Assembly: GCA_014860565.1 (NCBI GenBank)
Contig: JACZJN010000128.1
Span: 1 to 64,000 of the forward strand
Direction of reading: 5' to 3'
Origin: Bacteroidota bacterium
GTDB lineage: Bacteria > Bacteroidota > Ignavibacteria > SZUA-365
DNA length: 64,000 nucleotides
This document shows, piece after piece, positions 31,160 through 43,319 of this stretch. Made by a program: the position numbers and the translations under genes. Position 1 is the first letter of the stretch. The number at the start of each line of letters is the position of its first letter. The notes under the pieces are model-generated. The model was given only the letters and a program-made list of their open reading frames with translations. It made no database searches and was not told the origin of the DNA.

Positions 31160-32674
31160 CTATCCCCCTCCGACCATGCGACGGAAACCGGCGAGCAGTT
31201 TCCAGATGAACGCACGCCAGAGATTGATTTGCATGGATGAGGCGGAGGCAAGCAGGAAATCGAGGTCATGGCGATCGGCATGGGACAGGGACCGAAGAAG
31301 GGAACCGCCCCCCTTCTCCATCTGCTGTTCAATGCAGGAAGTCATGCGCCTTGTGACTTCATCGCGAAGCTGTTCGAAACGCCGGCGCAATTCCGGATCG
31401 TTCGTGTTCTTGATCACGACGCTGAGATGATCGATGAGCAGAACCAGCTTCCGAAGCTGTTCCAGGGAACAATGCAGATCCAGCTCACGGGCGATCTGTT
31501 GGAAGATCTCATGTATTTCGTCGAACTGCTCCTCTCGGAAATCGAAGAGACCGGGGAGGTCCACATCCTCCACCTGAAGATGGAGATGCGAAATGCGTTC
31601 GAGCTCGTGTCCGTAGCCGACGATGATCTCTTCGGTCATGGCGTTCACCTGCCGGTCGATCTCCTGCTGCACCGAACGGAGCGAATCTTCATAGCGTCGT
31701 CGGAGATGGGGACTCTGGGCTGCGTCAAACTGATGCTTCAGCTCGGCCTGCCGTTTCTGCAGCCGCTCGATGACCTTGTGCTGCGCAGTGTCTTCCTCGA
31801 AAATCTTGTCGCGAATGTAGCTTTTGGAGGCGATGAGCTGTGAACGTCCGATCTTGATCGTGTTGATGACAATCCGGTCGCCGAGAAGCCGGCGGATCTC
31901 CGCTTCGTCGAGGGCGCATGCACCGTCGGTGATAATGAGGATTTCTGTGCCGGAGAGTTGCGGCAGCGCATTGATGTCATCGACCGCCTGCCGGATGGCA
32001 CGCGCCATCGCGGTACCATTCCCCAGCGTGTGGAGGCGCATCACGTAGCTGATCAGCGCATGGAAGCTCGCCATGTCGCGCGCCTCGTGCAGTTCCCCGA
32101 TTTTCGTGTCGAAGGTGCGCAGGTTGATATATCCCAGCTCCTTCATGTTGTGCTTGAGGAAGTAGTACACCACGGCCTTGGCGAGGTTGATGCGGTTTTT
32201 CATCGCCATAGAACTCGAAGTATCGAGAAGCACATACAGTTTCTGCTTGCGGCGGTCTGGCAGATAATCGTCAGAATCTGGATCGACGGAGTAATAATGG
32301 GGGTCCCTCGGATATGGCACCCAGAGCTCTTTCTTTGCCAGACGGTTGAAAAAGACGTCCTCGGGCAGGAGCCACTGGTAGTTGTATATCCTCGGGAGAT
32401 GCTGCGGCGTGCGTATCAGCCCCGCTTCGTACTCTTCCTGCTCGTTGATGATAATCTCCAGGTCTTCCCTGTCCTCGGGCGGCGGCTCTTTTCTCCCCGG
32501 TTCGGTCAGCTGCAGCACGGGACGCAGCTGTTGAGTCAGCTGATTGTTTTCATCCTCCAGCACACGAGCGATCTCGAACACGGCGGTAAAATCCTCGGGC
32601 AGATCTTCGTAGATGTGCTCGAAGAAGCCCAGGTCCTCCATGACGTCGAAAAAATGTTCGTATGCGCCGGACAT
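31160..32674 (-). CDS. VWA-domain protein, ViaA/CoxE-like partner of the AAA+ ATPase
   Basis: A 504-residue cytosolic protein. The von Willebrand A domain (~145-320) has an intact metal site: Asp151, Ser153 and Ser155 in LLDTSSSMAM, a threonine in LGNGTAMARA, and ITDGACALDEAE. The flanking N-terminal helical part is acidic, and the C-terminal ~170 residues are helical (QKRQAELKHQF, REEQFDEIHEIFQQIAREL). In the MoxR/RavA families such a protein works with the ATPase encoded beside it. Only one base separates the stop of the ATPase gene from this ATG, so the two are a unit. Cellular role unknown. Confidence 0.85.
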   Translation of the reverse strand: MSGAYEHFFDVMEDLGFFEHIYEDLPEDFTAVFEIARVLEDENNQLTQQLRPVLQLTEPGRKEPPPEDREDLEIIINEQEEYEAGLIRTPQHLPRIYNYQWLLPEDVFFNRLAKKELWVPYPRDPHYYSVDPDSDDYLPDRRKQKLYVLLDTSSSMAMKNRINLAKAVVYYFLKHNMKELGYINLRTFDTKIGELHEARDMASFHALISYVMRLHTLGNGTAMARAIRQAVDDINALPQLSGTEILIITDGACALDEAEIRRLLGDRIVINTIKIGRSQLIASKSYIRDKIFEEDTAQHKVIERLQKRQAELKHQFDAAQSPHLRRRYEDSLRSVQQEIDRQVNAMTEEIIVGYGHELERISHLHLQVEDVDLPGLFDFREEQFDEIHEIFQQIARELDLHCSLEQLRKLVLLIDHLSVVIKNTNDPELRRRFEQLRDEVTRRMTSCIEQQMEKGGGSLLRSLSHADRHDLDFLLASASSMQINLWRAFIWKLLAGFRRMVGGG

Positions 32675-32675
32675 G

Positions 32676-33983
32676 TCAGGTCCAGATATGTTCCGCATCC
32701 TGGAACAGCGCCTGAATGTCGCGCTCTGTATTTCCCAGAAAATCGGCGATTTCTTCTGTGAGCGGTTCGAAGGACTTGAAATAGCCTTCGAGCAGACGTC
32801 GATTCTGTTCCTGCGTCGCGTTGGTAATGCCGAGGGTTTCCTTCGCCCACTCTGCAAGTGTGCGCCGCAAGGGCTGTCCCTCGATTTCGCTGATCGGCCG
32901 CCGCAGCAGCGAAGGATTGTGCTTGACGTGTTCGATGAATTCCTGGAACTCGAGCATGCGCTGAATCTGGTCGAATGCCTTGGCGGAACTGAGCTGTTTG
33001 AATATCGTGCTGTAGGATTTCAGGAACATTTCTTTCTGTTCCCGGATGCCGACGACGGTATAGAGATACCACAGCTTCTGAGCATCTTCGGGAATCACCT
33101 CCATCCTCCCGTGCAGGAAGGCAATCACGCGGAGCATGTCCATGGCCCTCGAATAGGTACGGGGCGAGATATAGAAATCCTTCAGATGCGGATGCTCATG
33201 CGGACGCTCCTTGATCAGACGATTGCGCTGCACTTCATAATAGCGCACCACCGAGTTCGCGAAGAAAATGACGTGCAGCGGAATATGAATGCTGAATTCA
33301 TCGTCGACACCACGGATGACATCCGATGCGCGTTTGAGCACGGAGTACGGAATGCGTTTTTCAGGCAATGTCGGCTGACCATGATGCGTCAGGTATCGCT
33401 GTGCGATCTGGTACTGTGTGTACGGTTCCTTTGCCGGTATAAACAGCGCCTTGAACACGAAGCGATCGAGCAGCGCTTCGGTAATCTCGCTCACCCGGAG
33501 GTAGTTCGTGGCGGCGATGACACTGTGCACCCGTGCGGGCACGTTCTGCACACCAAGGATCAGCGCACGCTCGTTGAGCGTCGTCAGCAGCGCTCGCAGA
33601 GTATAGTCGTTCGCGTCAAATATCTCATCTATGAAACCGAATTCGCTTTCCACGAGCGAATTCGCCGTGTTATGCATTATCCGACCCTTTTTCAGTTCGT
33701 CGATATCGAGTCCGCCGAAATAGGTATCGGGCTGCTGCTCCTTCGACGCCTGCACCTGGAAGACGTTCGCCCCTTCGAACATTCGGAATATCTGCTGGGC
33801 AAGCAGCGATTTCGCCGCACCGGTACGGCTCTGAATCAGTGCGTGTTCGCGCATGAGCATCGCGGAGAAGATCTGGTCGATCACTTCCGTACGATTGATG
33901 ATGCGGCGGTTGACGAGTTCGATCGCCGTGCGAAACTGCTCGATAACCTGGTCGGGATGGAACGGAGTCTTCTGTTCTGGCAT
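32676..33983 (-). CDS. MoxR/RavA-type AAA+ ATPase
   Basis: A 435-residue AAA+ ATPase. The Walker A loop is SRTGAAKS (residues 52-59, Lys58), with Ala before Lys as in MoxR proteins but Ser in place of the first Gly. Walker B FGFIDEIFDANDYTLRALL, sensor-1 SVIAATN and the arginine-bearing ALLDRFVFKAL follow. A helical C-terminal part (~290-435) replaces a simple lid. The start at 33983 (MPEQKTPFHPDQVIEQF) is used; the frame runs 53 codons further upstream through unlikely sequence. With the VWA protein downstream it resembles the RavA-ViaA pair, a remodeller/insertase for other proteins. Confidence 0.87.
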   Translation of the reverse strand: MPEQKTPFHPDQVIEQFRTAIELVNRRIINRTEVIDQIFSAMLMREHALIQSRTGAAKSLLAQQIFRMFEGANVFQVQASKEQQPDTYFGGLDIDELKKGRIMHNTANSLVESEFGFIDEIFDANDYTLRALLTTLNERALILGVQNVPARVHSVIAATNYLRVSEITEALLDRFVFKALFIPAKEPYTQYQIAQRYLTHHGQPTLPEKRIPYSVLKRASDVIRGVDDEFSIHIPLHVIFFANSVVRYYEVQRNRLIKERPHEHPHLKDFYISPRTYSRAMDMLRVIAFLHGRMEVIPEDAQKLWYLYTVVGIREQKEMFLKSYSTIFKQLSSAKAFDQIQRMLEFQEFIEHVKHNPSLLRRPISEIEGQPLRRTLAEWAKETLGITNATQEQNRRLLEGYFKSFEPLTEEIADFLGNTERDIQALFQDAEHIWT

Positions 33984-34183
33984 GTCCTTGCAGAGTATTA
34001 TGGAATTGCGGGAATCAAAAAGTACATGTTTGCGCAGAAAGGTCAAACAACCGTCTCCATGGAACAGACAGGTCTCCCAAACAGTACTCGCTTGAATGGG
34101 CCATTCGTTCAATAATAAAACAGAACGTGTTTCCTCTGGCATTCCTTGACACTCAAGTGCCAGAAGCGTAATTTGTCGAAGTT

Positions 34184-34243: not shown

Positions 34244-37240
34244 ATGGTACGATTTACCGTCCTGCTCCTGCTGCTGGCCTTCCTGACAAGCGCCCAGGGA
34301 AGTGCGCAGGTCAAGAATCTCAAGGAAGAACAGGACTATGCGTTTGCCCTTGGCCTGTTCAAGGACAGAAACTACCAGCTTTCCTTCGAGAAATTCCGGC
34401 AGTTCACCGCATCCTATCCTGAAAGCCTCCTCCTTCCCGACGCCGAGTACTATATCGCTGAATCACAGTTTCAGAATGCGAATCTGACCGATGCGGCCAT
34501 TGCCTTTGCTGCGTTTCAGCAGAAATACCCTGACAATAAGCTCGCGGATGACGCAGGCTTTCGGGAAGGTGAAGTGTACTACCGGCAGGGAGATTACCGT
34601 CGCGCGCACGAACAGCTGGCGTCGGTGGTCCGGAGATGGCCCGAAGGAAATCTCGCGCATGAAGCAGCCTACTGGGCGGGCGAGGCCGCGTTCAAAGACG
34701 GCAATTATCCCCTCGCGATGCGCTATTACCGTATCGCCTACGAACATTATCCCGAAGGACGCATCCGTGACTACGCATATTTCTCCATCGGCTTCGTACT
34801 TGAAAAACAGGAGAAATTTGAAGAGGCGCTGCTCAATTATGAAGAATTTCTGCGGCTCTTTCCTGAGAGCGGACTGATCTCCAGTGTATATACACGCAAG
34901 GGGGCCTGTCTCTATCAGCTCCAGGAGCATGAGAAGGCGCTCGCCTGGCTCGAAGCACTCAGCGATTCTCCCGATCCGGAGAATGCCGCGGAACGCCTGT
35001 TCCTCCGCGCCGAGGCGAATTACAAACTCGGACGCTACGCAGCCGCCGAGGAATTGTACAAGAGTTTTCTGACTGGCTACCCCGACAACAATCGCGCTCC
35101 CCAGGTACAGTATTCCATGGGATGGACGCAGATCGAACAGCAGAAATACTCCGAGGCCATCGCCACCTTCGACGAGCTTTCGAAGCGCCAAGGCGAACTT
35201 GCCGAGGCTGCGCTGTTCCGGAAAGGCATGGCACTGCGCCTCAACGGAACGCTCGAGGCGGCGAGAACGGTGTTCACCGATATGCTCACTGCACACCCCA
35301 CCGGAGCATACGCCGACAACGCGCATTTCGAACTGGGCATGGCAGCGTTCAATGAAAGCGCCTACGACAAGGCGCTCACGCATTTTGCCGCGGTCACAGG
35401 CAGCTTCCCGGACAGTGACGTTCTCGCGGATGCATGGTTCATGCAGGGAGAAACTCTTCTGAAACTCCAGCGCCCTGCAGAAGCTGCGAAAGCATATGGG
35501 GCTGCCGTTTCGGTCGAAAGTGGTTCACAGGAGGTACTCAGCAAAGCATTGTTCCGCCAGGGCTTCAGCCTGTTTGAAGCTGAACAATACAGCGAGGCGG
35601 TCATTGTTCTGAAAAATTTCCTCCAGCGCTACCCCGCCGATACCCGGAAAGCCGAAGCGCTGATATGGCTCGGCGAAGCGTATTTCAAGACTGAGGAATT
35701 CGACGACGCGGTCATCGTCTACAATCAGGCCCTCGCATCGACGCAGAATCCGGAACTCCTTCAGGATGCGCTCTACGGACTGGGGTGGGCTCATTTCCGC
35801 GCGCAGCAATTCGCCGATGCCGAACGCGTATTCACACGTCTTACAACGGAATACCGCGCCGGGAAAAACGATGTCGATGCGAACATTCGCCTCGGCGATG
35901 CCCAGTATTCGCAAAAGAAATTTGCCGATGCCGCGAAAACATACCGCTACACGTCACGAATGTATCCGGCAAATCCGCTGGCCGCATACGCGCTGCTGCA
36001 GCTGGCGTCCTGCGAGCATCGTCAGGGCAATACGCCCGCTTCGATCAGTACGCTCCGCGGCATGCTCTCGCGCTACCCCTCGTCGGAATTCGCCGACAAG
36101 GGACAGTTTTCCCTCGCCTGGATGTATTTCCAGAGCAAGGATTATAACGTTGCAATCGCGGAGTTTCAGAAGCTGATTTCCGGATATCCGGCAAGTCCGC
36201 TCGCGCCGCAGGCGAAATACAGCATCGCCGACTGCTATTACAATCAGGGGAAATATGTCGATGCCGAAGCCGCATACCGGCGTGTGCTCGAGCAGCATCC
36301 GGATTCCCCCAAGGTGAGCGACGCGCTGGATGGGCTCGCGCAGACCCTGCGCATGCAGGGACGCAACGCCGAAGCGGACCGAGTCAAGCAGGACTGGCTC
36401 ACGACCAATCCGAAAAGCAGCGCCGCGGACGAGGTTGTATTCGCAGGCATCCGCGATCTCGCCGCCGAGAATGACCCGTCGCGTTCTATTCCCGCGCTGC
36501 AGCGATTCATCGCCGCGCATCCGCAAAGCGCACTTCTTCAGGAAGCCTATCTCCTGCTGGGCCGCGCGTTCCGCCAAAACGATGATCTCGGCGAGGCCGG
36601 GAAAACCCTGCGGGAAGCGATCAAGATCAATCCCCGAGGAAATCTTGTCGTGGAATGCAAGTTCGAACTTATCGCAACGGCACTGGCCGAGCAGAATCGC
36701 AATATGGCACTGGCACTGTGCCAGGAACTGCTCACCGACCCAATGGCCCGCGGCAACCGCGCGCAGGTGTATTACCAGCGCGGGCTCACGTACAAGGCCG
36801 ACGGGAACAGTACCGCAGCACGGCAGGACTTTGAAGCGGCACAGCAGGCGCAGCCGCAGGATCCCTACGCTGTGCTTTCCGCGATCGAGCATGCAGTGAT
36901 TGTGGCGCAGGATGGAAAGGTCGATGAAGCGATTGTCGCGCTTGGCGAAATCTCAAGCAGCCGCGTCGACGCGATCGGCGCCGAAGCACAGTACCGTATC
37001 GGAGAGGAACTCTGGAACGTACGAAGGTATGCCGAGGCCGAGGAAGCCCTGCTGCGAGTCGGGTACGTGTTTGCCGATGCTTCGATGTGGAACGCACGCG
37101 CCCTTCTGCTGCTCGGCAAAGTGGATGAGACGCTTGGCAAGAATAGCGAGGCACGCGAACATTATAAAAAGGTGATTCAGCAATTCGCCGGGTCGGATGA
37201 GGCACGCGAAGCACAGACTCGCCTGGAGATGATGAAATGA
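34244..37240 (+). CDS. Exported 998-residue tetratricopeptide-repeat protein
   Basis: After a signal peptide (FTVLLLLLAFLTSAQGSAQ) almost the whole protein is TPR/YbgF-type repeats of 34-38 residues, roughly two dozen. Recurring phrases include F.KFRQFTASYPES, LKNFLQRYPADTRKAEALI, YRRVLEQHPDSPKVSDAL and LQRFIAAHPQSALLQEAYL. The spacing resembles BamD and YbgF/CpoB repeats, which scaffold envelope complexes. No catalytic domain is seen. It would fill the periplasm as an adaptor. It opens the operon; its stop overlaps the start of the beta-barrel gene by four bases (ATGA), so the two are made in step and may bind each other. Confidence 0.9.
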   Translation: MVRFTVLLLLLAFLTSAQGSAQVKNLKEEQDYAFALGLFKDRNYQLSFEKFRQFTASYPESLLLPDAEYYIAESQFQNANLTDAAIAFAAFQQKYPDNKLADDAGFREGEVYYRQGDYRRAHEQLASVVRRWPEGNLAHEAAYWAGEAAFKDGNYPLAMRYYRIAYEHYPEGRIRDYAYFSIGFVLEKQEKFEEALLNYEEFLRLFPESGLISSVYTRKGACLYQLQEHEKALAWLEALSDSPDPENAAERLFLRAEANYKLGRYAAAEELYKSFLTGYPDNNRAPQVQYSMGWTQIEQQKYSEAIATFDELSKRQGELAEAALFRKGMALRLNGTLEAARTVFTDMLTAHPTGAYADNAHFELGMAAFNESAYDKALTHFAAVTGSFPDSDVLADAWFMQGETLLKLQRPAEAAKAYGAAVSVESGSQEVLSKALFRQGFSLFEAEQYSEAVIVLKNFLQRYPADTRKAEALIWLGEAYFKTEEFDDAVIVYNQALASTQNPELLQDALYGLGWAHFRAQQFADAERVFTRLTTEYRAGKNDVDANIRLGDAQYSQKKFADAAKTYRYTSRMYPANPLAAYALLQLASCEHRQGNTPASISTLRGMLSRYPSSEFADKGQFSLAWMYFQSKDYNVAIAEFQKLISGYPASPLAPQAKYSIADCYYNQGKYVDAEAAYRRVLEQHPDSPKVSDALDGLAQTLRMQGRNAEADRVKQDWLTTNPKSSAADEVVFAGIRDLAAENDPSRSIPALQRFIAAHPQSALLQEAYLLLGRAFRQNDDLGEAGKTLREAIKINPRGNLVVECKFELIATALAEQNRNMALALCQELLTDPMARGNRAQVYYQRGLTYKADGNSTAARQDFEAAQQAQPQDPYAVLSAIEHAVIVAQDGKVDEAIVALGEISSSRVDAIGAEAQYRIGEELWNVRRYAEAEEALLRVGYVFADASMWNARALLLLGKVDETLGKNSEAREHYKKVIQQFAGSDEAREAQTRLEMMK

Positions 37241-38949
37241 AGCATCGCCTCGCCCTGCTGATTCTCATACTGACCGGTCAGGTGCTCTTGGCGCAGGACA
37301 AACCCATGCCGCCCCCGCGGGACTTCAAACCCGAGACCAAGGAGGCGCGCGACGTGCTTCCCGCCCTCACCCTGCCCGAATATGTGATCACCGGAAGCGA
37401 CATGATCAGCTTTACTGAAGATCGCAAAAGCGGAGCGACCGCCCCTGATAGCAAAGAGTTCACCGCACGGGCGGGACGCGGCAAACGCGAGCAGCGGTTT
37501 TTTGACACTTCACCCACGCACATGCCTCTGCGCCTGGCAGAACTCACCGGAAGCGACGAAGTGTTCCGTCTGCGCGCCGGACTTGGCACGTTTTCCACAC
37601 CCCTGTTCGAAGCCTGGTATGCCGACCGCTACCATCTCGGAGATGCGGCTGCGCACATGGCGTATGAGCGAAGTAATGGTCACGTCGCCCATGCCGATTA
37701 TTCGCGATTCAATTTCGACGTCGCTGGAGGCACATACCTGCCTCGAGACCTGACGCCGTTTCTTGCATCCTCCCGCGTACAGGGTGATGTGGAGATAGAG
37801 GCTGAGGATTTCGGCCTCTATGCCGACAAAATGACGCGCCATGATCCCACACTGGATTTCCGGCGCAATGCCCTTGGCTTTTCCGCGGGGATCGACGTGA
37901 TCTCACGGCGTAATGCCATCGTCGACCACGACCTCCGGCTCTTCTTTTCGCATTACGCAATCGAAGAAGCGCTCGCCGTACGAGATACGCTGCCCCTGGA
38001 AGAGTATCAGCAGATCGAAAACCGCTTCGGTCTCGAAGGGAACGTGAAGACCATGATCGAACGGCAATCCATCCGCTTTGGCCTGCGCCTCCATGTCAAT
38101 GATCTGACGGAAAGTGCTGCAACGGCATCGCGGCCATTCTTCCTCCGGACGGATGGGATGACGGTATTCGCACTGAGCGAACGACTCAAGCTTCATACCT
38201 CCGCGGCACTGTTCCTCTATCGTGGCAGCGATCAGGCGAGCCAGGTGCGCCTCTATCCTTCGCTTGAACTCCGGCATCTGCTCAGCGACGACTGGTCGCT
38301 GTTTGCCGGGTGGATCCCGAATGTGGAAGAGCGCACGCTGCACGGTTTCCTCCGGCAGAATCCTTATCTCATGCTCGCCTCCACCGTTCGGCATACCGAC
38401 ATGCCGCTGCGCTTCGAAGCAGGAGCGTCGTTCGACAACCGCGGACAGAGCAGTGCGCGCGTCTCTCTCGAATACCTCTCGAGCAGGAGTTGGCCACGGT
38501 TTGCACTGCTCCCGGATCCCATTCAGCAGCAGTGGGAAATGCGCTATGATGGCAGCGCGAGTGTTTTCAACATCCGCGCTGATATCGCGCATGCCTTCAG
38601 CGCGGAGACGCGTATTCATGCCGATATTCTGCTCCGTACGTCTGCCATTGGAGAAGACAACAGTCGTATCCCCTATATGCCGGACTACGAGGCACGTGTG
38701 CTGCTCCGTCATGATTTTCCTTTCGCGCTCAGTGTGCAATCCACCGTGCAACTCGTGGGAGAACAGGAAGCCGACGGCGGTGCCTTGCCCGCATGGATGC
38801 TCCTCGGACTCGAGCTCGAATATCGCGTCGTTCGCAACTTTGGGTTGTTCCTCCGTTTCGATAACCTGCTCGATCAGGGCTGGCAGCGTTGGCCCGGTTA
38901 TCGAGAGCGGCCCTTTTTCATGATGGGCGGAATAACCGCGCACTTTTGA
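37237..38949 (+). CDS. Outer-membrane beta-barrel protein, TonB-receptor-like without plug
   Basis: A 570-residue exported protein with a signal peptide (HRLALLILILTGQVLLAQ). A ~65-residue periplasmic stretch with LPALTLPEYVITGSDMISF resembles the start of TonB-dependent receptors, but a full plug domain is missing. The remainder alternates polar and aromatic residues in many strands (FEAWYADRYHLGDAAAHMAYE, LRLFFSHYAIE) and ends in a strand of barrel type (FFMMGGITAHF, terminal Phe). It likely sits in the outer membrane and is served by the TonB made at the end of the same operon. The cargo is unknown. Confidence 0.8.
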   Translation: MKHRLALLILILTGQVLLAQDKPMPPPRDFKPETKEARDVLPALTLPEYVITGSDMISFTEDRKSGATAPDSKEFTARAGRGKREQRFFDTSPTHMPLRLAELTGSDEVFRLRAGLGTFSTPLFEAWYADRYHLGDAAAHMAYERSNGHVAHADYSRFNFDVAGGTYLPRDLTPFLASSRVQGDVEIEAEDFGLYADKMTRHDPTLDFRRNALGFSAGIDVISRRNAIVDHDLRLFFSHYAIEEALAVRDTLPLEEYQQIENRFGLEGNVKTMIERQSIRFGLRLHVNDLTESAATASRPFFLRTDGMTVFALSERLKLHTSAALFLYRGSDQASQVRLYPSLELRHLLSDDWSLFAGWIPNVEERTLHGFLRQNPYLMLASTVRHTDMPLRFEAGASFDNRGQSSARVSLEYLSSRSWPRFALLPDPIQQQWEMRYDGSASVFNIRADIAHAFSAETRIHADILLRTSAIGEDNSRIPYMPDYEARVLLRHDFPFALSVQSTVQLVGEQEADGGALPAWMLLGLELEYRVVRNFGLFLRFDNLLDQGWQRWPGYRERPFFMMGGITAHF

Positions 38950-38951
38950 CC

Positions 38952-39179
38952 ATGGCTACCGCCGCAGACATATTGCACCGTACAGCCGCGCGCCTCGGGC
39001 TCGATCCGCAGGAACTGCAGCCCTATATGGACGCAATGCTGACGATCTGCGCGGATGCTCTTGACAGCGGCGAATGCGTGGAACTGATGACATTCGGCAT
39101 GCTCTGTCCGGCATCGGACAGCGAGGCGTTCCGCCCGCACAGCTCGCTCTTCCCTCCCGGTGCGGAGCAGCGGTCATGA
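38952..39179 (+). CDS. Small HU/IHF-like domain protein
   Basis: A 75-residue protein. The first 50 residues (ADILHRTAARLGLDPQELQP, LTICADALDSGECVELMTFG) match the helical N-half and first strand of HU-family DNA-binding proteins. The DNA-gripping beta arm is essentially absent and the tail is short. It starts two bases after the barrel stop and overlaps the next HU-like gene (ATGA), so it may pair with that protein as a heterodimer. It could be a degenerate HU or a protein-binding variant (HU-CCDC81-like). Confidence 0.65.
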   Translation: MATAADILHRTAARLGLDPQELQPYMDAMLTICADALDSGECVELMTFGMLCPASDSEAFRPHSSLFPPGAEQRS

Positions 39180-40198
39180 CAAGGGATGATCTCATACAGG
39201 CGCTCGCGGACCGCATCGACGTTCCATCGCACAGTGCGCAGGTCTTTTTACACGCCTGTTTCGACATCGTAAAATCCCTGCTCCGCGAGGGGGAGGAAAT
39301 CACACTTCCCGAGCTCGGGCGATGGCTTCCGATGCGCAGTACCGAGGGTATCCTGACTGGCGTTCGATACGCTGCACTGGTACCTGCAGGAACGGACAGC
39401 CCAATCGAAGTGCTGCACGGTTTGGCCAGCAGCATCGACGCACGGCATTTCATTCCTGTTCAGGCCCTCGACATCACGGGCGTGAACCAACGCTCCCCTG
39501 TTGATGTCGCCACGCTCGTAGCCGAGGTGAGCCAGCAGTTTGCTCCCCGTCTTGCAGCAGAAACGACTTCCGGCAATGAGGCGGTCCTCGATCGCGACAC
39601 GACTCCTGATGCGCTTCCTCCCACTCCACCCGTCATCGACACAGCAGCCGATCACACGGGCATGCAACCGATTTCCGAGGCGGACCTGCTTCTCGAAGCG
39701 GAAATGGAGGCTGAAGGGTACGCGGTGGAGGCCGACGCCAGACTGCTTGAAGAGGATTACCCGGAAGATGCCCAAGACGTCGTCGAAGAGGATTACCCGG
39801 AGGATGCCCAAGACGTCGTCGAAGAGGATTACCCGGAGGATGCCCAAGACGCCGTCGAAGAGGATTACCCGGAGGATGCCCAAGACGCCGTCGAAGAGGA
39901 TTACCCGGAGGATGCCCAGCAATTTATTGGAGATGATCCGATTCTTGCGCAGGATGCGATTCCCGACGTTGACCCATTGTCCGATGAAGAAGTATTTCAC
40001 AGGAATCGCGATCAGCTCTATAATCCACCGGATGAACCGAGCAAGCGGCCGCTGCTCATCACGGCAGCAGTATTGACTTTATGTGTGCTGGTGATCATCG
40101 TATACATTCTGCTCGACCACAGCGCCCCGCGCGAACTTCCAGGAAGCGCCCCGGTGGGACTGCGATCGATGCACGCCATGACGATTTCCCACACCTGA
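39176..40198 (+). CDS. Membrane-tethered HU-like protein with acidic tandem repeats
   Basis: A 340-residue protein of unusual layout. Residues 1-~95 are an HU/IHF-like domain (MTRDDLIQALADRIDVPSH, SLLREGEEITLPELGRWLP). A linker (~100-190) follows, then five 12-residue acidic repeats EEDYPEDAQDVV (~192-248), an acidic segment, and one membrane helix (~293-314, LLITAAVLTLCVLVIIVYIL) with a ~26-residue tail. The likely topology is HU domain and repeats in the cytoplasm. Bacteroidota have membrane HU-CCDC81 proteins ending in SPOR domains; no SPOR domain is present here. Its start overlaps the stop of the small HU gene; exbB follows. Confidence 0.75.
   Translation: MTRDDLIQALADRIDVPSHSAQVFLHACFDIVKSLLREGEEITLPELGRWLPMRSTEGILTGVRYAALVPAGTDSPIEVLHGLASSIDARHFIPVQALDITGVNQRSPVDVATLVAEVSQQFAPRLAAETTSGNEAVLDRDTTPDALPPTPPVIDTAADHTGMQPISEADLLLEAEMEAEGYAVEADARLLEEDYPEDAQDVVEEDYPEDAQDVVEEDYPEDAQDAVEEDYPEDAQDAVEEDYPEDAQQFIGDDPILAQDAIPDVDPLSDEEVFHRNRDQLYNPPDEPSKRPLLITAAVLTLCVLVIIVYILLDHSAPRELPGSAPVGLRSMHAMTISHT
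39749..39919 (+). repeat. 36-base coding tandem repeat (4.75 copies)
   Basis: Units start at 39749, 39785, 39821, 39857 and 39893 with GAAGAGGATTACCCGGA and are almost identical, differing by single bases (GTCGTC or GCCGTC ends). Each encodes twelve mostly acidic residues. Identity at silent sites points to recent slippage or unequal exchange. Confidence 0.97.
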
Positions 40199-40236
40199 AA
40201 CGCGAACAGAACTGTATCACTATACCGGAGCATTCG

Positions 40237-40917
40237 ATGACATTGTTCGATCTCTTCCTCAAAGGCGGCGTCGTCATGTGGTTTATCCTCGCCGCCTCCC
40301 TGCTCGCAACGTACATCGTCGTACAGAAGCTGTTCACGCTTTCGCGCGTCAAGGTCGACGGTGGGAAATTCATTCTGCAAATCCGCTCGGTGCTCAGCCG
40401 CGGTGACGTTGCCTCCGCGGTTACGATGTGCTCCGAGGCGGGCACGCCGCTTGGAAGCGTACTCCGTGCGGGATTGCTCAAAATGAAGGGGACACATCAA
40501 GAAGTAAAGGACGCGGTCGAAAGCGCTGCCCGGATGGAAGTCTATAAACTGGAACGGGGCCTGGGACTCCTGGCCTCGGTCGCCGGCATCGCACCGCTGC
40601 TCGGCTTCCTCGGCACGGTAACGGGCATGATCGGCGCATTCCGCGTCATTGAGGTCAATGAGGGCGTTGTCAATCCGCAACTGCTCGCCTCGGGAATCTG
40701 GGAAGCGTTGCTGACGACGGCATTCGGCCTGATCATCGGTATCCCGGCATACTTCCTCTACAACTACCTCGTCACGCGTGTCAGCCATTTCGTCTTTGAA
40801 ACCGAGGCAAGCTGCAACGACTTTCTTGACATCGCGCTCACCGAACAGCGAAAGGCTCAGATCGCCGCGAAAAAAGCGCAGATGGCGCGCGAAGCGGCAC
40901 AGGGGAAGGCGTCATGA
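40237..40917 (+). CDS. exbB: ExbB/TolQ/MotA-family proton channel protein
   Basis: A 226-residue inner-membrane motor subunit with three helices: GGVVMWFILAASLLATYIVV (~10-30), the conserved VAGIAPLLGFLGTVTGMIGAF (~112-135) and LLTTAFGLIIGIPAYFLYNY (~158-180). The middle LLGFLGTVTGM is the family signature. With ExbD it forms a pentamer-dimer motor that uses the proton gradient to drive TonB or Tol proteins. The start at 40237 follows GGAG by seven bases; the open frame upstream overlaps the HU gene and is not used. The C-terminal tail is basic (QIAAKKAQMAREAAQGKAS). Confidence 0.92.
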   Translation: MTLFDLFLKGGVVMWFILAASLLATYIVVQKLFTLSRVKVDGGKFILQIRSVLSRGDVASAVTMCSEAGTPLGSVLRAGLLKMKGTHQEVKDAVESAARMEVYKLERGLGLLASVAGIAPLLGFLGTVTGMIGAFRVIEVNEGVVNPQLLASGIWEALLTTAFGLIIGIPAYFLYNYLVTRVSHFVFETEASCNDFLDIALTEQRKAQIAAKKAQMAREAAQGKAS

Positions 40918-41336
40918 AAATCCAGCTGACACAGGTCAACAAGCCGCTGACGATTTTCAGCTATTCGTCTCTGACGGATATCGTGCTCCTGCTGCTGGTG
41001 TTCTTTCTCCTCACGTCGTCTTTCATCATCACCGAGGGCATCAAGGTGAGTCTGCCAGAAGCGGAGAACACGACAACAACGGAACAGGAACAGCTCGTCG
41101 TTGCCCTTCTCAACGACGGACGGATTTTCCTCAACAACGTCGAGGTTCCCACCGCGACCTTTCCCGCCGCGCTGAAAGAGCTGCTGACGAATCCCGAGAA
41201 GCAGGTGATCGTGCTGTCGAGCGATGCCGACGTGCCGCTCGAACGCGCGGTGTATGTAATGGACGAGGCAAAAGGATTGGGCGCGACACGATTTTTCATT
41301 TCCACTACGCGAAAAGAGAACGATGACACTCCATAG
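40914..41336 (+). CDS. exbD: ExbD/TolR-family protein
   Basis: A 140-residue protein with one membrane helix bearing the essential aspartate Asp22 (SSLTDIVLLLLVFFLLTSSF). A periplasmic domain follows, ending VIVLSSDADVPLERAVYVMD and GATRFFISTT. It overlaps exbB by four bases. The Asp is the proton-carrying residue in this family. Confidence 0.93.
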   Translation: MKIQLTQVNKPLTIFSYSSLTDIVLLLLVFFLLTSSFIITEGIKVSLPEAENTTTTEQEQLVVALLNDGRIFLNNVEVPTATFPAALKELLTNPEKQVIVLSSDADVPLERAVYVMDEAKGLGATRFFISTTRKENDDTP

Positions 41337-42174
41337 CGATGATGCGAAAAGCTGGGGCATTTCCATTGGTCTGCACGCGCTGCTGCTGTTGATCATGATT
41401 TTCTGGGCGGCGTTCCCCCAGATCTCACGCTTGCCGCAGGAAATCCAACTCCAGTTTATCATGCCGGAAAGCAAGATCGATCAACCTCCGATCGTCGAGG
41501 CACGCCCGCGTGTGCAGCAGGCGACCGTGCAGCAGCGTTCCGCGTCGCCGCAGGTGCGCAGCACGACGAGTGTGGCGCAGCCGGCGGCGCGTCCCGCTCC
41601 GTCCCGGCAATCCACATCCCGCGATGCGGGGAAACTGGAATCAGCTCCCTCCACTCCGGTCACTCCGCGTGAAATCCGTGGCGGCACCGACGCCGTCGAT
41701 TTCATGGATCAGGGCGGCGGGAAATCCACCCGCGGCAGCGCCCCGACGACGGGCACTTTCACCCGGCGCGAATCGCGCGAGCAGGGACTGGCGACCTCGT
41801 CGCAGTCTTCTGACAACGTGACCGGTGCGGGCGCCGGTCAGCAGAATGTGTTGACCTCGGACCCCGGCACGTTGAGCGCCACGCCGCATTCCTCCGCGAA
41901 TATCGAATGGGACGGGGGTATATCCCGCAACCGTATCGCGGGTATCCTCCCGGTATTTCCTCCCGGCGCGAATCGTGAAGTTCAGGTCGCAGTGCGATTC
42001 CGCGTACGGCCCGATGGGGGCATGTACGGGATGACGGTCATACAAAAAGGTGACCCGCGCTACGAACGCGCGGCTCTTGATGCGATGCGCACCTGGCGCT
42101 TCAATGCCCTCCCCGCCGACGCGAAGCAGGCCGATCAGGTCGGCACCGCCGTCTTCACCTTCAAACTGAAATAA
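41323..42174 (+). CDS. tonB: TonB-family energy-transducing protein
   Basis: A 283-residue protein with an N-terminal membrane anchor (GISIGLHALLLLIMIFWAAF). A long Gln/Ser/Arg/Pro-rich periplasmic stretch (~50-190) follows, then a C-terminal TonB domain (~200-283; VQVAVRFRVRPDGGMYGMTV, PRYERAALDAMRTWRFNAL). It would carry energy from ExbB-ExbD to an outer-membrane receptor, most simply the barrel encoded five genes upstream. The start overlaps exbD by 14 bases. The linker is less proline-rich than in E. coli TonB. Confidence 0.92.
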   Translation: MTLHSDDAKSWGISIGLHALLLLIMIFWAAFPQISRLPQEIQLQFIMPESKIDQPPIVEARPRVQQATVQQRSASPQVRSTTSVAQPAARPAPSRQSTSRDAGKLESAPSTPVTPREIRGGTDAVDFMDQGGGKSTRGSAPTTGTFTRRESREQGLATSSQSSDNVTGAGAGQQNVLTSDPGTLSATPHSSANIEWDGGISRNRIAGILPVFPPGANREVQVAVRFRVRPDGGMYGMTVIQKGDPRYERAALDAMRTWRFNALPADAKQADQVGTAVFTFKLK

Positions 42175-42353
42175 CCCACCGGATAGCGCGGCTGGGAATC
42201 GCTGCCCAATCCGGTCGAGGTGGAGAAGGATTTCAGGGACGTCGTTTGATATTGTGTTACATAACTTCCTTGGTCTACATTTGGTTCTGTGATGCGTAGG
42301 CCGCGCCCAGGCGTGACGGTACGTGATCATTCCTTCAAATGGAGTCGAAGTCG

Positions 42354-43319
42354 ATGAAACCACGTCCACTATTGCTTGTCCTCTTCCTCGTTTGCGTCGA
42401 TATCGCAATGCTGCATGCACAGTCGTCCCAGGAACTCGCTTCCGCGAAGGAAGCACTGTTGAGAGATGTAAGCGCGATGATGGAAGCCCGCGTGTTTCCG
42501 GTGATGTCACAGTGGAAATCTCAGTTCGAAGCCCGTCTGACAGACCGGGAACGAGCGACCCTCGATGCACTGCGCGAGCGCAATGATATGCTGAACGATA
42601 TCCTCACGCATAATCTTCGTGCGAGACAATCAGCGTGGGATAAGCGAGATTACGCGAGTTTCACATCCATGCGCAATCTGCTGCGCACAAACTTCGATGA
42701 TCGGCAGAAGCTCTACAGCGAGCTTGCGAGTTTCACCGAACGGAACGAGAAGCCCTTTCAGTACCTCTCATCACGGATCGACTCCACCGTCGAGGAATGG
42801 CGGGGCGCGTCTATGCGTATCTTTGTCGACTGGTTCGCCAAATACCGCCACGTGATATCCCTGGCAATGAATACTGCAGCAAGCGACGATCTGGCACGCC
42901 TGATGGCCGCGTGCAAGAATATCCGGCTCGAACAGCTCGACGAATTTGCGAAAGTCACGTTTCTTCTCTGGGACGGAGAAAACTACCTCACCCGCATCCG
43001 CGACCGCGGAATTCCGGAATCTCCTCTGACGAATGACAGTCCGAAGAGGGAGCAGGTCCTTTTTGTGGAACCCGCCACGCCAAACCCGGCGAGAGGAAAC
43101 ACCAACATCCGTTTTCTGCTGCCGACCCCGGGGCTAACACAAGCACGTGTGTACAATGCAAACGGACAATTGATGCGCACGCTTCTGAATGATACGCTTC
43201 CGATCGGCAAGCATATGGTTACGCTTAATGCAGGAGACCTGCCCGCAGGGACGTATTACGTCATCGTCGAAGTGGCTGGACTTTTTGACGGCGTCGCCGT
43301 CCGATTCTCCCCGCAGTAA
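42354..43319 (+). CDS. T9SS-exported helical protein with sorting domain
   Basis: A 321-residue exported protein. After a signal peptide (PLLLVLFLVCVDIAMLHAQ) residues ~25-215 are strongly helical and charged (SQWKSQFEARLTDRERATLD, FTSMRNLLRTNFDDRQKLY), with no motif I recognise. The C-terminal ~80 residues are a type IX sorting domain (ATPNPARGNTNIRFLLPTPG, ARVYNANGQLMRTLL, LPAGTYYVIVEV). The ATG at 42354 is preferred because GGAG sits nine bases upstream; 42339 is an alternative. It stands 179 bases after tonB with its own upstream region and converges on the helicase gene. Confidence 0.87.
   Translation: MKPRPLLLVLFLVCVDIAMLHAQSSQELASAKEALLRDVSAMMEARVFPVMSQWKSQFEARLTDRERATLDALRERNDMLNDILTHNLRARQSAWDKRDYASFTSMRNLLRTNFDDRQKLYSELASFTERNEKPFQYLSSRIDSTVEEWRGASMRIFVDWFAKYRHVISLAMNTAASDDLARLMAACKNIRLEQLDEFAKVTFLLWDGENYLTRIRDRGIPESPLTNDSPKREQVLFVEPATPNPARGNTNIRFLLPTPGLTQARVYNANGQLMRTLLNDTLPIGKHMVTLNAGDLPAGTYYVIVEVAGLFDGVAVRFSPQ

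Follow-up and report, generated by a model that had tools for sequence, protein, structure and literature searches.

The closest known counterpart of the locus reported here is the Tol-Pal system, which combines a TolQ/TolR motor, the transducer TolA, the proteins TolB and Pal, and a YbgF/CpoB-type TPR protein. According to a 2025 survey (PMC12204202), tol-pal loci are not identifiable in Bacteroidetes, Chlorobiota are named as having tol-pal, and other systems stabilising the outer membrane are still to be found; the same survey asks how Bacteroidota, a phylum dominant in the gut, in soil and in the sea, maintain and constrict their outer membrane without Tol-Pal. As a Tol-Pal substitute in this phylum, lipoproteins of the PorE type, which fuse CpoB, TolB and Pal in Bacteroidetes, have been proposed (PMC12204202). 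We describe here a seven-gene operon at positions 34244-42174 of a 64,000-nucleotide stretch of DNA from a Bacteroidota bacterium (contig JACZJN010000128.1, hereafter the window), which comes from a draft genome of 4.75 Mb. The operon is the local version of a motor spread over nearly the whole Bacteroidota phylum, and its distribution is opposite to that of TolB and Pal, which suggests a functional replacement of Tol-Pal. This makes it a concrete candidate, amenable to knockout and imaging. Our literature search, with most subscription journals and preprints outside its coverage, returned no paper on the operon and no usable essentiality data. The features of the operon are the following:

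34244..37240, + strand: TPR protein, 998 amino acids, with a signal peptide and CpoB/YbgF-like repeats
37237..38949, + strand: barrel outer-membrane protein, 570 amino acids, predicted barrel at residues ~110-569
37372..37395, + strand: LPEYVITG, a TonB-box-like segment close to the mature N-terminus of the barrel protein (residues 46-53)
38952..39179, + strand: HU1, 75 amino acids, armless and acidic HU-fold protein, predicted cytoplasmic
39176..40198, + strand: HU2, 340 amino acids, with a HU domain, an acidic linker, one transmembrane helix and a periplasmic tail
39749..39918, + strand: tandem repeat in HU2, 36-bp unit, 4.7 copies
40237..40917, + strand: ExbB/TolQ-like proton channel subunit, 226 amino acids
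40914..41336, + strand: ExbD/TolR-like subunit with a transmembrane Asp (D22), 140 amino acids
41323..42174, + strand: TonB-family force transducer, 283 amino acids, with an N-terminal SxxxH transmembrane motif and a TonB C-terminal domain

Consistent with a previous reading of the window from its letters alone (hereafter the sequence-only reading), all seven open reading frames lie on the same strand and four of their junctions overlap (-4, +2, -4, +38, -4 and -14 bases, in order). The gene order is conserved in relatives, and the arrangement is therefore not due to chance. Like Tol-Pal, the operon has a TonB-family transducer and a YbgF/CpoB-type TPR protein, and its motor may be of TolQ/TolR type; unlike Tol-Pal, it has neither TolB nor Pal, its probable outer-membrane partner is a barrel of ~22 strands, it would contact peptidoglycan through a SPOR domain (lost in the window), it includes an extra HU-fold pair and its TPR protein reaches ~1000 amino acids. 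The PorE-type lipoproteins differ from it as single lipoproteins tied to the type IX secretion system, without motor genes, barrel or HU.

The opposite distribution was established on 99 genomes of the phylum, 21 of them from one family (f30) and 78 from others, TolB being called by TIGR02800 at E<=1e-60 and Pal by TIGR02802 above its cut-off. Within f30, TolB was above cut-off in 19/21 genomes and slightly under it in the other two, and Pal was above cut-off in all 21; elsewhere both were called in 0/78. Since the FMO antenna protein is present in 11/11 of the f30 genomes tested, this family corresponds to the green sulfur bacteria. It is also the only sampled family with a full Tol-Pal operon, ordered TolQ-TolR-TolA-TolB-Pal-Pal-CpoB (TolA by position and topology, TolB and Pal by the profiles above). 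Conversely, the plug-less barrel described below occurs in 0/21 f30 genomes; in the 78 others, the barrel profile reached E<=1e-16, a threshold picked after f30 genomes were seen to reach 7e-14 at best, in 64, and inspection of locus L175 added a further genome (G046). We rejected the view that every match of the barrel profile is an operon barrel, because the best matches in 18 f30 genomes are transporters, most of them with a visible plug, matched toward the C-terminus only (the three remaining genomes gave no match). In the genome of the window itself, the best TolB score (TIGR02800) is 89 bits against a cut-off of 343 and the best Pal score (TIGR02802) 92 bits against 125, with no Pal in the operon.

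Two side observations concern the green sulfur type. In green sulfur bacteria (L197-L201), two successive Pal genes and then a CpoB-like TPR gene stand downstream of TolB. One genome of family f43 (G110) encodes the green sulfur-type FMO antenna protein, yet at our thresholds neither TolB/Pal nor a plug-less barrel was called in it.

At a looser threshold (E<=1e-3), the barrel profile matches 276 of 297 genomes across the phylum, an upper figure that includes the generic transporter matches in f30. We read 67 loci from 38 families in detail, some of them cut by contig ends. The TPR gene stands directly upstream of the barrel gene at 58 loci (34 families); SPOR is present at 37 loci (24 families), ExbB and ExbD at 37 (21 families), TonB at 38 (17 families) and HU at 29 (17 families). 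The nearest named relatives are 12 loci in metagenome-assembled genomes labelled Bacteroidetes/Ignavibacteria. Leaving aside HU losses and fusions, the window's family retains all seven genes. A SPOR domain is usual on the anchor protein across the phylum and was lost in the window's lineage: it lies on the same protein in most other families, and it is missing as well in the other sampled family of the window's order (L041). The whole set had been judged unusual in the sequence-only reading; being phylum-wide, it is not, and the missing SPOR domain alone is peculiar to this lineage. A shorter arrangement, TPR-barrel-transmembrane-SPOR-TonB without HU and without ExbBD in cis, was seen in several families of the class (L051, L052, L053, L097, L099, L102, L103 and L106).

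In the window, TPR families of Pfam match the first protein of the operon with E down to 4e-77, and it scores best as YbgF/CpoB (TIGR02795 tol_pal_ybgF, 407 bits over 12 stretches); no lipobox was seen in it, and it is predicted to be a periplasmic scaffold. The second protein gives a weak Pfam match to TonB_dep_Rec_b-barrel (1.4e-3), and among PDB entries a profile of 24 barrel homologues hits siderophore receptors and BtuB over C-terminal strands, with E values of 1e-9 or weaker. Its AlphaFold2 (AF2) model, built on a 12-row alignment with a mean predicted local distance difference test score (pLDDT) of 73, has ~22 strands from residue 110 and leaves residues 14-95 disordered; the best 50 fold matches listed from the PDB are all TonB-dependent transporters. 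Neither the Pfam scan nor the AF2 model contains a plug domain, and the protein is, on this model, a plug-less outer-membrane barrel of TonB-dependent-transporter type. With these transporters (BtuB, FrpB, OprC and others) it shares the barrel fold, the C-terminal signature and a TonB gene in the same operon, and its N-terminus may hold a TonB box; it differs by the missing plug, the ~1000-residue TPR neighbour and the lack of a substrate gene. The TonB-box-like segment, the short hydrophobic LPEYVITG, recurs as LPE(F/Y)VITG in much of the class, with VEIRG/IEIRS-like segments elsewhere; it looks like a TonB box and may be bound by TonB.

The three last genes encode a complete ExbB-ExbD-TonB motor (Pfam MotA_ExbB 1.7e-30, ExbD 1.7e-25, TonB_C 8e-7), including the ExbD aspartate and the TonB SxxxH motif. 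The transmembrane Asp is present in 37/37 operon ExbDs (31 by pattern, 6 by eye from the sequences). In contrast to the usual motor, the operon encodes one dedicated barrel and its motor subunits score nearer to TolQ/TolR profiles: the best NCBIfam profiles of ExbB and ExbD are tolQ and tolR, under the equivalog cut-offs, and for ExbB TIGR02796 tolQ gives 98 bits versus 67 for exbB, both below cut-off. The same genome carries a second ExbB-ExbD-ExbD set (contig C16, L094:7245-8930), next to which no TonB was found and which could be a nutrient-transport motor.

We consider the chances evenly balanced that the operon is a Tol-Pal-like, proton-driven machine for constriction or tethering of the outer membrane. 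More tentatively, it may be the missing, non-orthologous Tol-Pal counterpart of Bacteroidota, in which TonB would pull a plug-less transporter barrel instead of Pal/TolB and an armless HU heterodimer would be the cytoplasmic module. The TolQ/TolR-like ExbB and ExbD would energise the periplasm-spanning TonB of the operon, which would grip the TonB-box-like N-terminus of the barrel, while the TPR protein would scaffold the barrel in the periplasm, like CpoB in Tol-Pal. Attachment of the motor at the site of division would be the task of the single-pass HU2 protein, which carries a periplasmic SPOR domain in most of the phylum. SPOR domains bind denuded septal glycan. As this domain was lost in the window's lineage, positioning of the motor must there come from another protein; SPOR domains are encoded in four further stretches of this genome and might stand in for the missing one. 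Pulling would draw the outer membrane inward at the constriction, as TolA does on TolB-Pal, and would tether it between divisions. In the cytoplasm, HU1 would pair with the HU domain of HU2 at the head of the anchor, clustering it or docking a cytosolic partner; this pair would be dispensable and would not bind DNA. If this is true, a transporter barrel would here serve as a mechanical handle, and the fold of a nucleoid protein would have become a protein-binding module.

Several points count in favour of a Tol-Pal-like machine: the plug-less transporter-type barrel with a TonB-box-like N-terminus beside TonB, the TolQ/TolR-leaning ExbB/ExbD scores together with the YbgF/CpoB-like TPR protein, the second motor set that could serve nutrient transport, the phylum-wide conservation, the distribution opposite to TolB/Pal, and the independent survey result that tol-pal loci are not identifiable in Bacteroidetes (PMC12204202). 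Others weigh against it. The C-terminus of the transducer is labelled TonB, not TolA. Several families have the TPR-barrel pair without ExbBD/TonB or SPOR in cis, and about a dozen genomes (e.g. families f25, f43, and G026) have neither system at the thresholds used. The opposite distribution sets one lineage, the green sulfur bacteria, against the rest and thus amounts to one evolutionary contrast. Because HU2 of the window is without SPOR, the septal argument rests on relatives. Finally, the outer membrane could instead be tethered by PorE-like proteins (PMC12204202) or by the many OmpA-domain proteins of this genome, which score below the Pal cut-off.

The barrel also lends itself to a dedicated TonB-driven transport or secretion role, which we hold to be unlikely, where barrel and TPR protein would form a pore for one cargo (protein, lipoprotein or glycan), opened or driven by ExbBD-TonB. 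Structurally the barrel does belong among TonB-dependent transporters, its N-terminus is TonB-box-like, and TPR proteins are frequent escorts of proteins that are secreted or displayed on the surface. However, the usual gated import mechanism does not apply to a barrel without plug, SPOR and a tolQ/tolR-like motor are better suited to a positional role, and the core is conserved phylum-wide, yet the operon is without a cargo gene; the opposite distribution to Tol-Pal would also be left unexplained.

Concerning the HU proteins, both calls of the sequence-only reading hold. PF00216 matches HU2 at 3.4e-6 (27.6 bits, cut-off 22.4) and HU1 at 3.7e-4 (21.1 bits, slightly below cut-off), and all listed fold matches of the HU2 model (residues 1-103, pLDDT 74) are HU/IHF proteins (E from 4e-3, probability mostly near 1). 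HU1 and HU2 thus share the HU fold (helical dimerisation half) of HU/IHF DNA-binding proteins, but differ from them in lacking a beta-ribbon arm and a basic surface. Indeed, PF00216 aligns in both over profile positions 1-52 of 90 only, the HU2 model has a short hairpin and no full arm, and the NPxTG-tipped arm is missing from both when they are aligned with three canonical HUs encoded in this genome. The net charge is -7 for HU1 and -4 for the first 75 residues of HU2, versus +3, +12 and +8 for the canonical HUs, the lengths compared being 75 residues versus 90-106. Judged from these sequence features, the two domains look like protein-binding modules rather than DNA binders.

The pair is the split form of a known architecture, the HU-CCDC81 tandem with SPOR (Pfam PF18174/PF18175 + PF05036), which likewise has two HU domains and a transmembrane helix; in the window the HU domains lie in separate genes, score on PF00216 only and have lost SPOR. 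The absence of SPOR from HU2, already pointed out from the sequence, was confirmed with Pfam, the periplasmic tail being only ~27 amino acids long. HU1 is the counterpart of HU-CCDC81_bac_1 by position and alignment. In relatives, the same operon slot holds either two genes (HU1, then HU-transmembrane-SPOR) or one tandem protein, and PF18175 is matched there, above cut-off in L114, L125 and L120; the single protein of L120 combines HU-CCDC81_bac_1 and bac_2 (Pfam), a transmembrane helix and a sub-cut-off SPOR. PF18175 has no match anywhere in the window's own genome, although fold and homologous slot resemble those of HU-CCDC81 proteins.

Two other species of the window's genus provide a natural deletion experiment (L137:2138-3142 and L138:10650-11341): HU1 is gone, HU2 is without its HU domain and retains linker, transmembrane helix and tail, and the remaining operon genes are kept (TPR is cut by a contig end in L137). 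Because both HU domains were lost with the rest kept, we regard HU as an accessory pair. The sequence-only reading had named close relatives with ExbBD-TonB but without HU and TPR as speaking against a functional link; such relatives exist with respect to HU, the TPR gene being kept. None of the sampled loci has HU1 without HU2, and only one HU is recognisable in families f11, f20 and f22. Mapped onto the tree of barrels, HU is found on either deep side and changes at least 3 times on well-supported branches, so that HU is old and was repeatedly lost or gained. The acidic linker of HU2 (EEDYPEDAQDxV) is encoded by a 36-bp minisatellite (39749-39918, 98% match), and relatives have other acidic repeats there. 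Next to the membrane, the stretch FHRNRDQLYNPP (39995-40030) is a possible docking site; members of the family conserve it strongly, including those that have no HU domains.

These data bear on the link between envelope motor and chromosome put forward in the sequence-only reading, of which one part stands, a proton-driven trans-envelope operon, kept together in relatives, with TPR protein, barrel and two HU-fold proteins, one of them membrane-anchored. For the other part, HU1 and HU2 would have to bind DNA and the motor to move or anchor the chromosome, which we consider quite improbable and rejected as the leading explanation. In its favour, the HU fold is real, the N-terminus of the membrane-anchored HU2 is predicted to lie inside, and in family f14 the PF00216 match of HU1 still extends over positions 1-85 of 90. 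HU-CCDC81 proteins were reportedly described by Burroughs et al. (Cell Cycle, 2017), who are said to have proposed a chromosome-partition role. Against this, the window's HU domains are armless and acidic, both are jointly missing in the two congeners, where the operon is otherwise intact, and HU is absent in many families of the class. Slightly less probable still is a regulatory HU1-HU2 dimer, which on sensing a cytosolic partner would switch or cluster a motor having an ordinary TonB role. In most HU-bearing families HU1 and the HU2 domain do co-occur, whether split or fused, they are missing together in the two congeners, and their acidic surface fits protein binding, but no partner was identified and only one HU is recognisable in f11, f20 and f22.

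The genes around the operon add two minor observations. Upstream lies a divergent pair (31160-34142) whose products resemble, by eye, a von Willebrand A-domain protein and a MoxR-type AAA ATPase. A 326-residue secreted protein (42339-43319), part of whose C-terminus resembles a type IX secretion sorting domain, follows on the 3' side; it is conserved at this position in the genus's other species, with weak traces in one other genus.

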